Positions 9,571 through 61,114 of a stretch of 64,000 nucleotides of DNA are shown in pieces; within the stretch, counting starts at the first letter, position 1, and each line of letters begins with the position of its first letter. The DNA is from Orbaceae bacterium BiB (GTDB taxonomy: Bacteria; Pseudomonadota; Gammaproteobacteria; Enterobacterales; Orbaceae), in assembly GCA_036251205.1 (NCBI GenBank), contig CP133958.1, forward strand, positions 2,097,210-2,161,209, read 5' to 3'. A program made the translations under genes and the position numbers. Under the pieces are notes generated by a model, which ran no database searches, was not told where the DNA came from, and worked only from the letters and a program-made list of their open reading frames with translations.

Positions 9571-10085
9571 TCAATTATTAACCGTTTACGCCTTGTAATG
9601 GGTGGCGGATTTCCGCCATCGCTTTAACTAATCCAAAGTCCGATTATTGGATATTGAGATTAAAGCTATCTTTATTTATGGGTGTGTCCAGTTTTGGGCG
9701 TACCTACTCGAATCAACATCATTATAAAGGTGTACCCTCTAATTTGAGGTGGCTAATTATCAACCATTGCGATAATGCCAATAGTCTAAGGCAATATTCT
9801 GCCCTCGCTTAAATACGGGCTACAGTCGCAATTAAATAAAATCAAAGAGTTATTTTCTCTAGCTGAATGGTGAAGATCACCATTGAGGTAATGAATTTAC
9901 ATTTAAGTTAAATATGAGATCCCCCAGTAATTAAAGCTACGATCTTGTAGTTTTCAGCTATCACCACTTCAGTGATACCTTTAAATGGTTTACTAAAAAT
10001 TTAGTAACCGTTATGTAGTCTACGACTCATAAAAAGTCATACTCTTTAAATAGTTCGCGCCCATAGTAACAGTAACCTATCTATA

Positions 10086-10251
10086 TGATTTTAATAAAAT
10101 CCGTCACAAAACCTGACTTACTTTAGGACTAGATTAATAAATAGATGATTAGATTTAGCTTTTTGTAATTACGGTTACGCCGTTGGCGTTCTCCGATAAT
10201 ATCAATAACTTAGGGTTTAATGTTACTGTGATTTTAATAAAATCTGTCACA
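10086..10251. repeat. Direct repeat of 23 bp, two copies
   Basis: The sequence TGATTTTAATAAAATC followed by YGTCACA is present at 10086-10108 and 10229-10251 with one mismatch. Each copy has an internal dyad (GATTTT-AAT-AAAATC). The second copy is extended into a longer hairpin by flanking CTGTG and CACAG. Such paired sites may be protein-binding sites in the element's replication or excision region. Confidence 0.7.
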
Positions 10252-10461
10252 GGGTCGGATTTCAAATCCTAGCCTAATATAATCATGCTTACCAAAGGAA
10301 AGGTATTTATTTAATACATTCTACAATGCGCGCACTTTTGCTCATATCTTTAGATTATCATGGGACTGACAAAAACATAACACATTGATTTATAAGCAAA
10401 GTGTGAAATTACGTTTTATTAAATTCTTTATATTTCAGTAAGTTATTAAATAGCACCTATT

Positions 10462-10567
10462 AAGGGGATACAAGTGGATACAAGGGGATAGTATTTACAA
10501 GTATCCACTTAGGTCTAAACCTTATATATCAATACTTAGAAAGAATTAAGTGGATACAAGTGGATAC
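10462..10567. repeat. Iteron cluster AAGKGGATAC, candidate origin
   Basis: The 10-bp unit AAGKGGATAC occurs in three tandem copies at 10462-10491 (the third ends in G), once inverted at 10501-10510, and twice in tandem at 10548-10567. P4 and PICI replication origins carry iterons bound by the alpha/Pri-Rep protein, and the element encodes such a primase. Because the cluster is about 300 bp beyond the 3' end of the integrase gene, it could instead be a set of integrase or AlpA arm sites. The repeats themselves are certain; the role is inferred. Confidence 0.7.
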
Positions 10568-10855
10568 TTTTATAAAACTTTTAGGGGGTAGGCAAAAGAT
10601 ATTACACTATTGACGGAATACTTAAGATATTCTTTTCTTGGTAAGGGGTATCTTCATTATAAAGACGGCTGATTGGCTGAAAAGTTAGCCGATTGATTTG
10701 GTAGCTCAATTTGAGCCACTTACTTAACCAAGCTCAATTTTAAGCCTATTGAATTTATTGAGATTTTAGAGAGATAGAGCAAGCACAATTTTGCGCCCGT
10801 TAATATTGTTGATGTTGTAAGCAATTATAGATATATGCTTACACCATTGTTTTAA

Positions 10856-12106
10856 CTAGCTATTTATAACCTTAAATGATTTATTGCCCGATATTGATAC
10901 ATTGCCGTTACTTGCTTGTTCTACAAAGTCACCCCACCAATCTAGCATAATGCGCCTTTGCTCTAAATAGGTAGCGCGGTTATATGCTCGCCTTACCGTG
11001 TTCGTGTCTGTATGAGCTAGTGCGCTTTCTATTACGTCATAATTAAAACCTTGTTCATTTAACACGGTACTAGCTAACGCTCTTAGCCCGTGAGCTACTA
11101 ATCTATCCTTGTAGCCCATTCTTTTAATCGCCATATTAGCGGTGCTACTATTCATTGATTGAGTGTAAGGCGGCTTCATGCTAGGGAAAACATGAACTCT
11201 TGAGCCACTAATAGGCTTCATTGTCTTTAATATTTGTAATGCTTGCGCTGAAAGTGGCACATTGTGCGGTCTATCCATTTTCATGCGCTCGGGAGGGATA
11301 TTCCAAAGTTTATTATCAAGGTCTATTTCTTCCCATTTAGCGCCAACAGCTTCGCTAGGTCTGACCATTGTTAATAACTGCCATTCTATAACGCATCTTG
11401 TTTGAAGTTCTATTCTTGCCATAGATAAGGCTTTCATGAATTCGGGTAATTCATCGCGTGTAATTGTTGGCATTTGTCCTTTTATTGGAGTTTCAAAGGC
11501 ATCTTTTATCTTTACGGCAGGATTAGCATCAATTAATCCAATATTTACCGCATAAAACATTACTTCATTGATGCGTTGACATAACCGCTTAATATTTTCA
11601 AATTTCTTGCTTGATCTCTGTGGTTCAAGTGCTTTTATAAAGTCTTTAGCCTTTAATGATGTTATTGCTTTTTGCCCGATACAAGGAAAAATATATATCT
11701 CCAAGGATCGCCATGTTCTATCTAGTGTACCTTTTGATAATCCTTTGCTAGCTTTCAGCTTAAACCAATCATGTGCTACATTTTGAAAAGTATTATATAA
11801 ATCTGCCTGTTTTTGTTCCAGTAGCTCTTTTTTATGCTCCTGTGGATCAATACCATTGCTTAATAGTTCCCTCGCTTCATCTCTTAGCTTTCTGGCTTGT
11901 TGTAGTGATACTTTGGGATAGTTTCCAAAGGTTAATAAGTTTTCCTTTTTGGTAAGAGGTCTCTTATATTTTAGTCGCCATACTTTAACGCCGTTAACTT
12001 TTACCAATAAAAACAGCCCACCACCGTCAAAATACTTTTTATCTTTGTCTATTGGCTTAAATGCTTTTATTTGTGTGTCTGTAAGTGGTGTTATTTTAAT
12101 AGCCAT
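10856..12106 (-). CDS. int: P4-type tyrosine integrase
   Basis: This 416-residue recombinase catalyses integration and excision at the neighbouring tRNA-Ala gene. The N-terminal DUF4102-type arm-binding domain is clear (DGGGLFLLVKVNG, then LTFGNYPKVSLQQAR), followed by a SAM-like core-binding domain and the catalytic domain with Arg in MVRPSEAVGAKW, HGLRALAST (His-x-x-Arg) and the nucleophile Tyr in RRAYNRATYLEQRR. The reading frame is open to 12127, but ATG at 12106 follows AAGG at a good distance and fits the family's start. The gene starts about 185 bp from the tRNA 3' end, the usual arrangement for P4-like elements. Confidence 0.95.
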   Translation of the reverse strand: MAIKITPLTDTQIKAFKPIDKDKKYFDGGGLFLLVKVNGVKVWRLKYKRPLTKKENLLTFGNYPKVSLQQARKLRDEARELLSNGIDPQEHKKELLEQKQADLYNTFQNVAHDWFKLKASKGLSKGTLDRTWRSLEIYIFPCIGQKAITSLKAKDFIKALEPQRSSKKFENIKRLCQRINEVMFYAVNIGLIDANPAVKIKDAFETPIKGQMPTITRDELPEFMKALSMARIELQTRCVIEWQLLTMVRPSEAVGAKWEEIDLDNKLWNIPPERMKMDRPHNVPLSAQALQILKTMKPISGSRVHVFPSMKPPYTQSMNSSTANMAIKRMGYKDRLVAHGLRALASTVLNEQGFNYDVIESALAHTDTNTVRRAYNRATYLEQRRIMLDWWGDFVEQASNGNVSISGNKSFKVINS

Positions 12107-13541: not shown

Positions 13542-15398
13542 CTAAATTGATAGCTTATTAACACGGCGTCCACCGTATATTAAATTAGCCAATGCTCTTG
13601 TTCCGACAATTGAGGTAAACATGGAGGTTAAAATACCAATACCTAATGTGATTGCAAAACCTTTGATTGAGCCCGTACCCACAGCATATAATATGATCGC
13701 CGTCATTAAAGTTGTAATGTTAGCATCAAAGATACTGCTCCAAGCGCCAGCATACCCTTCATTGATCGCATGTTGAACACCTCTGCCATTACGCAGCTCT
13801 TCTTTTATGCGTTCATTAATCAGTACGTTTGCATCAACAGCCATACCAACAGTTAATACAATCCCTGCAATACCTGGCATGCTTAGTGTTGCACCTGGTA
13901 ATAAGGACATAATACCGACAATTAAAATAAGGTTTGCGACTAATGCAACACTAGCAAACACCCCAAATAGACGATATACGACGAGCATGAAAATAACTGA
14001 TATTAATAGTCCCCATAAGCAAGACTCTAAACCTTGAGTTATGTTTTCTTGTCCCATTGATGGACCGATGGTTAGCTCTTCAATAATTTGAATTGGTGCA
14101 ATCAGTGCGCCAGCTCGTAGTAATAAGGATAATTGTCGTGCTTCTTCTACATTATTAATACCCGTTACTTGGAAACGGTCACTAAAAATACCTTGTATTG
14201 TTGCAACATTAATTACTTGTTCTTGTTTTTCTAAAATAGGTTTGCCATCTTTGTCGACTTTACCAGAATCTTTATACTCAACAAATAGTGTTGCCATCGG
14301 TTTATAACGATTCGCTTGGGTAAATTCAAGCATCTTTTTACCACCTTCACTATCCAGTGATATAGATACTTCAGGTTGACCATACTCATTCAAGCGGAAT
14401 GAGGAGTCTGTAATATGATCGCCGGTTAATACAATATTTTTATACAATAATACGGGGCGACCTTCTTGGGTATATTTGATTTCTGAACCATAAGGTGGTC
14501 TAGCTGAACCAGAAACGATATCTAATAAAGTGTTTGGATTGATATCATTGACTTGTCTAAACTCTAAAGTAGCTGTGGCACCTAAAATCTGTTTAGCGAG
14601 TGCGGTATCTTGAATACCAGGTAATTCAACAATAATTCTATCAGAACCTTGTCTTTGTACGATAGGCTCAGCAACACCAAGCTGATTGACTCGATTTCTT
14701 AAGATTGTTGTATTTTGTGCAACTGCATCTGATTTTGTTTGCTGTAACCTATTTTCACTGATGTTAATCAGGAGTTGTTTATCATTCTGTGCAGCAATAT
14801 TATAGTCAGCTAATTGGCTAATTCTTGCAATTGCATTATTTCTATCATCATCGTCTGCAAAAATAATACTAATTTGTTGATCATTCGTTTTATTAAGTGA
14901 TGTGAAATTAATTTTATTATCTTTAAAATCAGCTTTTAATGTATCGCTTGCTTGATCAAGTAACCGTTCTAACGCCGCAGTCATATCAACTTCCATCAGG
15001 AAGTGAACACCACCACGTAAATCTAACCCTAATTTCATCGGTGCTGCACCAAGAGCGGTTAACCAAGCGGGGGTTGCTGGCGCTAAATTGAGAGCGACAA
15101 TATATTTATCACCTAATTTTTCCGCAATAAGTTCTTTGGCTTTAAGCTGAATATCATTATTGGCAACTCGAATTAGAATTGAATTATTTTCAAATACAAT
15201 TGATTTAGCTTCAATTTGATTATCACTTAAAAGCTTTTGAATCTCTTCTTGAGTTTGGACTGTAACTTCAGAACTTCTGGTGTTAGAAATTTGAATTGCA
15301 GGGTCTTCACCATAAATATTTGGAAGTGCATAAAGTAGGCCGACGAGTATTACGACGACCAACAAAATATACTTCCACAAAGGATAGCGATTTAACAC
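13542..15398 (-). CDS. secD: Protein translocase subunit SecD
   Basis: SecD partners SecF in late steps of protein export. One N-terminal membrane segment (WKYILLVVVILVGLLYALP) is followed by a large periplasmic part containing GLDLRGGVHFLMEVD, then five C-terminal segments with IAGIVLTVGMAVDANVLIN. The length of 618 residues is usual. It is in the conserved yajC-secD-secF order. The typical upstream genes tgt and queA are absent; the nuo cluster lies there instead. Confidence 0.97.
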   Translation of the reverse strand: MLNRYPLWKYILLVVVILVGLLYALPNIYGEDPAIQISNTRSSEVTVQTQEEIQKLLSDNQIEAKSIVFENNSILIRVANNDIQLKAKELIAEKLGDKYIVALNLAPATPAWLTALGAAPMKLGLDLRGGVHFLMEVDMTAALERLLDQASDTLKADFKDNKINFTSLNKTNDQQISIIFADDDDRNNAIARISQLADYNIAAQNDKQLLINISENRLQQTKSDAVAQNTTILRNRVNQLGVAEPIVQRQGSDRIIVELPGIQDTALAKQILGATATLEFRQVNDINPNTLLDIVSGSARPPYGSEIKYTQEGRPVLLYKNIVLTGDHITDSSFRLNEYGQPEVSISLDSEGGKKMLEFTQANRYKPMATLFVEYKDSGKVDKDGKPILEKQEQVINVATIQGIFSDRFQVTGINNVEEARQLSLLLRAGALIAPIQIIEELTIGPSMGQENITQGLESCLWGLLISVIFMLVVYRLFGVFASVALVANLILIVGIMSLLPGATLSMPGIAGIVLTVGMAVDANVLINERIKEELRNGRGVQHAINEGYAGAWSSIFDANITTLMTAIILYAVGTGSIKGFAITLGIGILTSMFTSIVGTRALANLIYGGRRVNKLSI

Positions 15399-29474: not shown

Positions 29475-29634
29475 GAAGTTTTAATATTTAATGGTGGTAA
29501 GCATAACGCAATCAATTTGCCTGTAAAGAATTTTTATCTGCATATGATATTAATTGCGTCATTATGAACATCCGTTTTTACACTAAAATAACACTTTACA
29601 GCAATATTATAACGAAAATAATCGTACTAATTGC

Positions 29635-58976: not shown

Positions 58977-59573
58977 TTAGTGGCTACATCCACAGCCGCC
59001 ATGACCACCACAACAGCCGTCATCATTATCATCATGGTCATCACCACCACAGCATCCGCTCTCTTCACCATGCCCACCACACCCACAACCGCCATGACTA
59101 TGGCCATGAGCACCATGAACGTGACCATGAGTTAATTCTTCTTCAGTCGCTTCACGTACATCAATGATTTCAACTGTGAATTTTAAATCTTGCCCTGCTA
59201 ACATATGATTACCATCTACAGTAATTTTATCACCATCAATCGCTGTAATTTCCACTGGTACAGGCCCATGTTCTGTATCGGCTAAAAAACGCATGCCGAC
59301 TTCAAGATCATCAACGCCAACAAAAACTTCTTTAGGTACTTCTTGTACTAGATTGTCATTATAGTCACCATAAGCATTATTTGATGCGACTTCAACATCA
59401 AATTTATCTCCAGCTACTCGACCAACTAATGCATCTTCTAAGCCTTTAATTAAATTACCTGCGCCGTGCAAGTATTCTAAAGGAGCGACGGCAGTTGCTT
59501 CATCAACTAAAACGCCATCTTTTGTACGAACTTGATAAGCAATGCTTACAACATTATCTTTTGCTATTTTCAT
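58977..59573 (-). CDS. slyD: FKBP-type prolyl isomerase and metallochaperone SlyD
   Basis: SlyD folds proteins by peptidyl-prolyl isomerisation and delivers nickel to hydrogenases. The FKBP core (VVSIAYQVRTKDGVLVDEAT, PLEYLHGAGNLIKGLEDALV) is split by the insert-in-flap domain (ELGFF-type region HMLAGQDLKFTVEIIDVREA). The C-terminal 50 residues are extremely rich in His, Cys, Gly and Asp (HGHVHGAHGHSHGGCGCG), a metal-binding tail. The frame is open to 59738, but ATG 59573 with GGAG before it matches the family. 198 residues. Confidence 0.95.
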   Translation of the reverse strand: MKIAKDNVVSIAYQVRTKDGVLVDEATAVAPLEYLHGAGNLIKGLEDALVGRVAGDKFDVEVASNNAYGDYNDNLVQEVPKEVFVGVDDLEVGMRFLADTEHGPVPVEITAIDGDKITVDGNHMLAGQDLKFTVEIIDVREATEEELTHGHVHGAHGHSHGGCGCGGHGEESGCCGGDDHDDNDDGCCGGHGGCGCSH

Positions 59574-59824
59574 TTTATCTCCAGTCTTTAGCGAGAAAAG
59601 ATTTAATGATTTTATCCGAAAAAAACCATAATGTATCTTTTTTAATGATAATATTTGAGGAATATTATTATTTCGACAAGGTAGAATGCTACTTATTATT
59701 AATTGTATAAAAAATAAATCCATCTTATTACTTATCAATTCAGGCGGTAAGTTGAATCAGTTGTTATTTTTTATAGATTAATAATCTTGATTACGGCATA
59801 CATTTTTATTCTTATCAGATCATT

Positions 59825-59873
59825 TTTATACTTTTTTTATATCAAGCAAAACTATTTTTACACCTTTTTTATA
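59825..59873 (+). promoter_or_regulatory. Two KdpE-type boxes upstream of kdpF
   Basis: TTTATACTTTTTTTATA (59825-59841) and TTTACACCTTTTTTATA (59857-59873) share the layout TTTAYA-N5-TTTATA and lie 32 bases apart. From memory the KdpE target of E. coli is CATTTTTATACTTTTTTTAC; the first box matches this nearly exactly. The kdpDE two-component genes are gone, so these look like relic operators. The start of kdpF is about 50 bases on. Confidence 0.7.
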
Positions 59874-59924
59874 TCCTTTTCTTTATGCTGACTAGGTAAT
59901 AATTATTTTAGTGAGCTTTATTTT

Positions 59925-60014
59925 ATGTCAATCTTATTAGGAATTGCTTTTCTATTTGCAATTAGTTTATTCGGTTATTTAGTTTATGTCCTGTACAATG
60001 CGGAGGACTTTTAA
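59925..60014 (+). CDS. kdpF: KdpF, small potassium-ATPase subunit
   Basis: A 29-residue single-span peptide, MSILLGIAFLFAISLFGYLV followed by YVLYNAEDF, fits KdpF, which stabilises the KdpABC complex. It is directly next to the KdpA-like start: its TAA is followed at once by ATG. It is still an intact peptide although the pump genes are missing. Confidence 0.85.
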   Translation: MSILLGIAFLFAISLFGYLVYVLYNAEDF

Positions 60015-60992
60015 ATGACAACGCAAGCAATGATTTTACTTGTCTTATTATTAGCGGTATTAACCATACTCGCTTATCCATTAGGTAAATACCTAGCATA
60101 TATTGCTATACCTGACAATAATGTGAAGGGACTTAGCTATATTGAGTCTTGTATTTACAAAGTTTCAGCTGTACAAAATCATCAACAAATGAATTGGAAA
60201 CAATATGCCCTAAGCGTTATGTTGTTCAATATCTTAGGAATTATTGTTCTCGTTATTTTACAGTTATTACAATCCTACTTATCGCTAAACCCAAATAATG
60301 CAGAAATGCTGCGCTTAGATTTGGCGATTAACACCGCTGTAAGTTTTGTAACAAATACAAATTGGCAGGCTTATAGTGGAGAAACGGGTGTTAGTTATTT
60401 AGTTCAAATGCTTGGACTTACAGTGCAGTATTTCTTATCGGCAGCGACTGGGATTGCAATTGCAATTGTATTTGCAGTCATTCGTGGACTAAGTAGTTAT
60501 AATCAAACTGCCCATAGTCTTGGTAACTTTTGGGTTGATATCACGCGCATAACACTTTATGTGTTGTTACCTCTATCGATTATTGTGAGTCTCATTTTTG
60601 TAAGCCAAGGTGTTATTCAAAATTTTTCAGCTCCCTTAGAAGTTAAAACTTTAGACGGTGGTTCGCAAATACTTGCGATGGGGTATTTACATAATACGTT
60701 TATTTTCGGTGATGTTCAAATTGATTTCAGTACTCATCAGATTTTAAAAGGAGGCCAAGAAGTCCACCTTACTCCAACTGAATATAAATTATTAAGTGAG
60801 TTGATTAAAAATGTTGGCAGAGTCTGTACTCAGCGGCAATTATTGTTAGCTGTTTGGGGGCCAAATTATGTGGAACAACCGCATTATTTACGGATTTATA
60901 TGGGGCATTTACGCCAAAAATTAGAGTCTGAACCAACTAATCCGGCACATTTACTTACTGAAACGGCGATAGGTTATCGACTAATCCAATAA
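60015..60992 (+). CDS. In-frame fusion of KdpA N-terminus to KdpE DNA-binding domain
   Basis: Residues 1 to about 223 match the first part of the potassium channel subunit KdpA: four membrane helices with the first selectivity-filter loop SFVTNTNWQAYSGET, ending at DGGSQILAMG. At about residue 224 the sequence changes to the winged-helix domain of the response regulator KdpE (FGDVQIDF, HLTPTEYKLLSELIKNVGRV, RIYMGHLRQKL, ETAIGYRLIQ). kdpB, kdpC, kdpD and the rest of kdpA and kdpE are missing between. The join keeps the frame, without any stop codon. By P-loop topology the KdpE part would face the periplasm, so activity as a regulator is doubtful; a deletion scar is the simplest reading. Confidence 0.85.
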   Translation: MTTQAMILLVLLLAVLTILAYPLGKYLAYIAIPDNNVKGLSYIESCIYKVSAVQNHQQMNWKQYALSVMLFNILGIIVLVILQLLQSYLSLNPNNAEMLRLDLAINTAVSFVTNTNWQAYSGETGVSYLVQMLGLTVQYFLSAATGIAIAIVFAVIRGLSSYNQTAHSLGNFWVDITRITLYVLLPLSIIVSLIFVSQGVIQNFSAPLEVKTLDGGSQILAMGYLHNTFIFGDVQIDFSTHQILKGGQEVHLTPTEYKLLSELIKNVGRVCTQRQLLLAVWGPNYVEQPHYLRIYMGHLRQKLESEPTNPAHLLTETAIGYRLIQ

Positions 60993-61072
60993 ACGACATT
61001 GTTATACCAGACTTTAATTAATCAAATTTAGATATATTATTGAAAGTATGAAATTTATAGTGGGTATAAAGT

Positions 61073-61097
61073 AACTAGCGGCTTTTAGCCGCTAGTT
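61073..61097. terminator. Bidirectional terminator
   Basis: AACTAGCGGCT-TTT-AGCCGCTAGTT forms an 11-bp stem between the convergent kdpA'-'kdpE and purine-permease genes. Confidence 0.75.
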
Positions 61098-61114
61098 TGC
61101 TCTAATCCATATTA

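Follow-up and report, generated by a model that had tools for sequence, protein, structure and literature searches.

In the KdpFABC pump, the KdpA subunit is described as a protein of ten helices arranged in four TM-pore-TM repeats (PMC6255902), with a selectivity filter that receives K+ from the periplasm (PMC12629597). The order of the kdp genes is kdpF-A-B-C-D in E. coli and kdpA-B-C-D-E in Arsenophonus. The response regulator KdpE recognises a site of two half-sites with a 5-bp spacer; the second half-site is given as TTTACA in the account of PMC3264566, where the base that sets it apart from TTTATA is reported to be without effect. According to the same account, R193, R200 and T215 of E. 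coli KdpE are needed for DNA binding, and the isolated DNA-binding domain binds its site without promoting expression in E. coli in vivo (PMC3264566). In addition, multigene deletions in M. tuberculosis have been described that fuse parts of two genes into a chimera, with one such fusion shown to be expressed at the protein level and one chimera called functional (PMC7671302).

In Orbaceae bacterium BiB, pieces of KdpA and KdpE are found in one reading frame, within a window of 64 kb (the whole stretch of DNA that was analysed). The fused ORF (60015-60992, ATG start, 325 aa) is open throughout and joins KdpA residues 1-223 in frame to the KdpE winged-helix domain. A sequence-only reading of the same DNA had proposed an in-frame KdpA-KdpE chimera without a stop, spanning 59925-60992; the chimera is real and ends where proposed, but the fused frame begins at 60015, and 59925 is the start of kdpF. 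The features of the locus are as follows.

59821..59843, plus strand: putative KdpE-type binding site, with half-sites TTTATA (59825-59830) and TTTATA (59836-59841) and a 5 bp spacer
59925..60014, plus strand: kdpF, 29 aa, open; PF09604 at 21.8 bits against a cut-off of 21.2; upstream GGAG motif gone
60015..60683, plus strand: KdpA residues 1-223, with four membrane helices and the first selectivity-filter loop (TNTNWQ, residues 113-118)
60684..60698, plus strand: junction or linker, residues 224-228, assignable to neither parent
60699..60992, plus strand: KdpE C-terminal winged-helix DNA-binding domain, including the stop codon, without the receiver domain

Both parents are recognised by Pfam and by NCBIfam. 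The Pfam KdpA family is matched by residues 11-223 (profile 2-212 of 548, 237.5 bits), a fragment that reaches the Pfam cut-off, and Trans_reg_C by residues 247-323 (profile 1-77 of 77, 68.8 bits). The NCBIfam matches are to KdpA (TIGR00680; fusion residues 1-225, profile 1-223 of 563, 224.8 bits against a cut-off of 387.7) and to KdpE (PRK10529; fusion residues 230-324, profile 130-224 of 225), with scores far under the whole-protein cut-offs because neither piece amounts to a full family member. Over its whole length, the KdpA piece (residues 1-223) aligns with E. coli KdpA (PDB 5mrw, 6hra) at 48% identity and keeps TNTNWQ. Thus the four helices and the filter are as first read, whereas the description of this part as half of KdpA is too generous, the true share being about 40%. 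On the other side of the join, residues 231-324 align without gaps to residues 131-224 of E. coli KdpE (61% identity; about 60-66% to seven enterobacterial KdpEs), such that the whole winged-helix domain (compare PDB 3zq7, 4kfc) is present and R293, R300 and T315, which align with R193, R200 and T215, are all kept. Unlike KdpFABC, the fusion is without the rest of KdpA, KdpB and KdpC; unlike KdpE, it has no receiver with a phosphorylatable Asp and is joined to membrane helices. When the long frames of the Providencia kdp operon were used as query, the window matched only at 60078-60683 (KdpA) and 60699-60986 (KdpE), with no further kdp pieces, which localises the join to 60684-60698; residues 224-228 fall between the two parental matches, in agreement with the proposed join at about residue 224. 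The codon-position composition is gene-like over all 325 codons, and third-position G+C is 0.29 in the KdpA part and 0.27 in the KdpE part, slightly above that of six neighbour genes (0.20-0.25).

Upstream of the fusion, the survival of kdpF and of KdpE-type boxes had also been claimed, and both are found. The kdpF assignment is near threshold, lying just above the Pfam cut-off and below two NCBIfam cut-offs (25 against 53, and 21.4 against 26.85). Here kdpF and kdpA abut (60014/60015), whereas the E. coli pair overlaps by one base. The GGAG motif upstream of kdpF, present in seven of seven aligned relatives, has been lost, and in the same upstream alignment the kdpA ribosome-binding motif is intact. 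The 19-base core of the KdpE site, CATTTTTATACTTTTTTTA at 59821-59839, is the same in Serratia and E. coli K-12, is followed by the kdpA start after 194 bases (193 in Serratia), and occurs in one exact copy in the whole genome; its TTTATA half-sites conform to the site definition in PMC3264566. At 59853-59873 the perfect box is followed, 32 bp downstream, by a second KdpE-like pair of half-sites (TTTACA, 5 bp, TTTATA); a -35 region might be expected at this place, and the counterpart in relatives is only a T-rich stretch of loose similarity. Between the KdpE box and kdpF, the plus strand shows no sigma-70-like site, the count of candidates in this region being that expected by chance (9 versus 9.0).

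The genome is a single contig of 2.93 Mb, 99.75% complete, in which KdpA is found at this locus alone. In line with the sequence-only reading, kdpB, kdpC and kdpD were not found: neither KdpC nor KdpD has a match anywhere in the genome, and the KdpB search gave four matches in three frames, all below the cut-off and all to other P-type ATPases, with no true KdpB found. The KdpA piece is therefore left without its partner subunits KdpB and KdpC, and the KdpE piece without its cognate kinase. TrkH, for potassium uptake, is found in all four genomes of the genus, the host included. The fused frame is known from one assembly only, and it could be argued that the join is an artefact of assembly and that the operon is in fact whole. 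A misjoin, however, would often be expected to leave the lost DNA elsewhere in the genome, and the failure to find the missing genes in a one-contig, nearly complete assembly makes this highly unlikely.

The two parents belong to one operon and lie on the same strand, the DNA between them is gone, and the surviving pieces are collinear with the operons of Arsenophonus and E. coli. By comparison with the Providencia and Yersinia operons, the missing stretch amounts to ~6.8-6.9 kb. In all likelihood, a single deletion of this length in kdpFABCDE left a non-functional relic. A complete operon would formerly have stood at this site, and one deletion, from kdpA codon 223 to the kdpE linker, would have taken out the remainder of kdpA, the complete kdpB, kdpC and kdpD genes and the half of kdpE that encodes the receiver, with the ends joined in frame by a one-in-three chance. 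The product, if transcribed and translated, would be a stub of KdpA with four helices, which probably could not form a pore, and its KdpE DNA-binding domain would sit in the periplasm, out of the reach of DNA.

The figure of one in three comes from random kdpA-to-kdpE deletions in four intact operons, of which 32.0-33.5% were in frame and open (4,000 trials for each operon). Thus the open frame and the clean join need no selection. The age of the fusion was approached by simulated neutral evolution under an assumed mutation model, with 800 runs per setting. With substitutions only, the open frame survived to 0.05 substitutions per site in 5.5% of the runs; when indels amounting to 10% of the substitutions were added, it survived to 0.02 in 5.8%. 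Because about 95% of neutral runs close the frame by 2-5% divergence, the fusion is probably either young or maintained. The open frame, the gene-like composition, the intact KdpE box and kdpA ribosome-binding motif, and the conserved DNA-binding part all fit a young scar but would also fit a maintained use. An old relic, formed by stepwise decay through several deletions and with its frame open by chance, would account for two substitutions and two two-residue insertions in the KdpA part and for the lost ribosome-binding motif of kdpF, but is extremely unlikely given the low neutral survival of the frame and a divergence of both parts that lies within the range of other operons.

The substitutions in question are N139 to Tyr, at a position that is Asn in 111 of 111 full-length relatives, and P90 to Ser, at a position that is Pro in 110 of the 111. 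Among KdpA columns conserved in at least 98% of these proteins (111 KdpAs from 125 hits, of length >480 and with duplicates removed), two of 31 are changed, and only one of the 111 intact KdpAs has as many; at a 95% threshold two of 37 are changed, a number shared by 11 of the 111. The winged helix shows no departures (0/12 columns at 98%, 0/17 at 95% and 0/25 at 90%), a test of low power that was based on 51 KdpEs from 67 hits (length 190-400, near-full coverage, duplicates removed). One of the two insertions adjoins a tandem repeat of ATTGCA. This repeat, ATTGCAATTGCAATT at 60453-60467, borders two residues that are lacking in all 111 full-length relatives. The idea that selection has been more relaxed on the KdpA part than on the DNA-binding part was considered and is not convincing: against seven reference operons six residuals were negative and one positive, with ranks from 2 to 38 of 48, and all lay within two standard deviations. 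The ratio of KdpA to KdpE identity in the fusion is within the scatter of other operons, which suggests that most of the divergence predates the fusion.

The winged helix had been expected to lie outside the cytoplasm, and the predicted topology agrees. Four hydrophobic segments are found (best at 5-23, 64-82, 141-159 and 179-197), and TNTNWQ lies in the loop that connects segments two and three. Since the filter receives K+ from the periplasm (PMC12629597), helix 3 would run inward and helix 4 outward, placing the winged-helix tail on the periplasmic side. The charges of the loops are modest in their signal: Lys and Arg number four in loop 24-63 and one in loop 83-140, as expected, and only one in the inner loop 160-178. 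With regard to altered topology, neither homology nor loop charges point to one. An AlphaFold model (mean pLDDT 71.4), built on an alignment of KdpA rows only, has long helices at 3-31, 61-84, 128-160 and 172-197, and its KdpA part superposes on solved KdpA over 223 columns (TM-score by query 0.52-0.53, rmsd 5.1 A). In its DNA-binding part the model is of low quality (block pLDDT 39-55 from residue 261; rmsd near 15 A versus KdpE chains), and the model does not decide the topology of the fusion. With four helices left instead of the ten that make up four TM-pore-TM repeats, and with most of the pore and KdpB missing, the stub is not expected to pump.

In membrane-anchored regulators of the ToxR/CadC type, the DNA-binding domain is on the cytoplasmic side of the anchor. 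In the fusion, homology and the modest charge signal would place this domain outside. A working DNA-binding protein, membrane-anchored or released, that acts at the retained KdpE box is very unlikely; its winged helix would reach DNA through an inverted topology, an internal translation start or release by a protease. Such a protein would be consistent with the retained box, kdpA ribosome-binding motif and frame, with the three DNA-binding residues named in PMC3264566, and with conserved-position departures that number none in the winged helix and two in the KdpA part. Against it stand the four KdpA helices that place the tail outside, an in-frame ATG at residue 222 that has no ribosome-binding motif just upstream, and an architecture seen in none of the relatives. 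In addition, the genome has three other box-like sites with two mismatches each (four matches in all), versus five in a reversed-pattern control. If the protein works, self-repression would be its simplest role, given that the isolated domain binds its site without activating. A fuller version, in which the fusion is expressed and kept, and the KdpA stub anchors or delivers a KdpE domain that still binds the kdp box and represses its own promoter or competes at related sites, is more doubtful still; if true, an expressed fusion would be the remnant of a six-gene circuit.

Of the two alternatives first proposed, a fresh scar and a new membrane-bound regulator arising through altered topology, the scar is favoured over the regulator, since the in-frame join is expected one time in three, the receiver and the sensor are gone, most of the pore repeats and an invariant Asn have been lost, and no altered topology was seen. 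The view that both would be unusual was too strong, as gene fusions made by deletion have already been described in bacteria (PMC7671302). Compared to the M. tuberculosis chimeras, the present one combines the start of a transporter with a DNA-binding domain, and is known from sequence alone. As a deletion scar, the locus represents a clean case of an operon turned into a chimeric gene, caught before decay, and the searches found no other kdp in its family. If selection were seen to keep the fusion across a series of strains, the locus would offer a natural experiment on the origin of new domain combinations. For now its chief relevance is to annotation, where automatic pipelines may label the fusion KdpA or KdpE and caution is called for.

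The distribution of KdpA was followed in a set of one genome per species, and no second genome of the host species turned up in the searches. A KdpA match is present in 58 of 394 genomes of the order, in 57 of them in open frames of 559-690 residues and in the host in one of 325. KdpA was not found in the other three genomes of the genus, and no KdpA-like match is among those listed for 43 other genomes of the family, five of which are <90% complete. Searched with the fused protein, these 43 genomes give a best E-value of 1.1e-12, to residues 219-322, and the matches listed fall on the DNA-binding part, except that a weak one (E 1.2e-4) covers residues 125-305; in the remainder of the order, KdpA parts give 5.5e-34 or better. 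The same KdpA-KdpE architecture was not seen in any relative examined. In a scan of contigs from 84,980 species, for which 80 loci were taken as the best of 590 relatives, only one Lachnospiraceae locus (L073) matches both parts; it was rejected as a second fusion, as the match covers residues 3-323 yet kdpE (9590-10288) lies just upstream of a full-length kdpA. An apparent KdpD-KdpE fusion at another locus (L046; a stop-to-stop frame of 1166 aa) was likewise set aside as a long chance frame before kdpE, because no Met precedes residue 606 and the other matches listed (25 rows) are of KdpE length, at about residues 860-1166. In a Pelotomaculum MAG (L025), the stop-to-stop frames with KdpA (9851-10879) and KdpE (14248-14673) matches have only 342 and 141 residues, and its kdp operon looks broken or mis-sequenced. 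A scan of viral contigs brought up no relative, and in plasmid records the kdp matches, among the 20 rows listed of 26, were all partial and spanned no more than 29% of the query. In open-licence PMC papers, no KdpA-KdpE fusion appears in the titles or abstract openings listed, and no paper on kdp in Orbaceae was found.

In a KdpA tree, the chimera forms a long, unplaced branch (end branch 0.96) that belongs to no supported set. Its grouping with Enterobacterales-type rows is not rejected (p-AU 0.45, for 31 rows sampled from 112, three rows of the order having been omitted before sampling). The operon may thus be a vertical relic or a horizontal gain.

In this genome, slyD is followed first by the scar and then by genes for a xanthine/uracil-type permease and an EamA transporter. 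The scar-side neighbour of slyD is a UbiA-like gene, followed by a large GPAT-type acyltransferase gene, in six of nine relatives (three congeners, two g2 genomes and one g4 genome); two g3 genomes have other slyD neighbours, and in the g5 genome the gene is absent from the filtered frame list. The neighbours were checked with Pfam for one congener and for this genome. No kdp-like DNA was found in the nine syntenic loci, and the two matches there correspond to a stretch upstream of slyD (59601-59665). The host differs from the three congeners in that its UbiA-type and GPAT-type genes lie ~138 kb from slyD (L220 92-1236; window 58977-61114), and the UbiA gene adjoins a two-frame transposase with HTH_Tnp_1 and rve domains, which we take to be IS3-like. 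The slyD/kdp site has thus been rearranged, in an event that may have brought the kdp operon in, or may only have moved it. No remnants of the IS3-like element were found beside the scar; its one clear match in the window is far away, the three others having E-values of 0.28 or more. This match comprises 46 bases (29575-29620) that are 87% identical to L220 1343-1388, a stretch between the IS3-like transposase and the UbiA gene, and is perhaps a small dispersed repeat.
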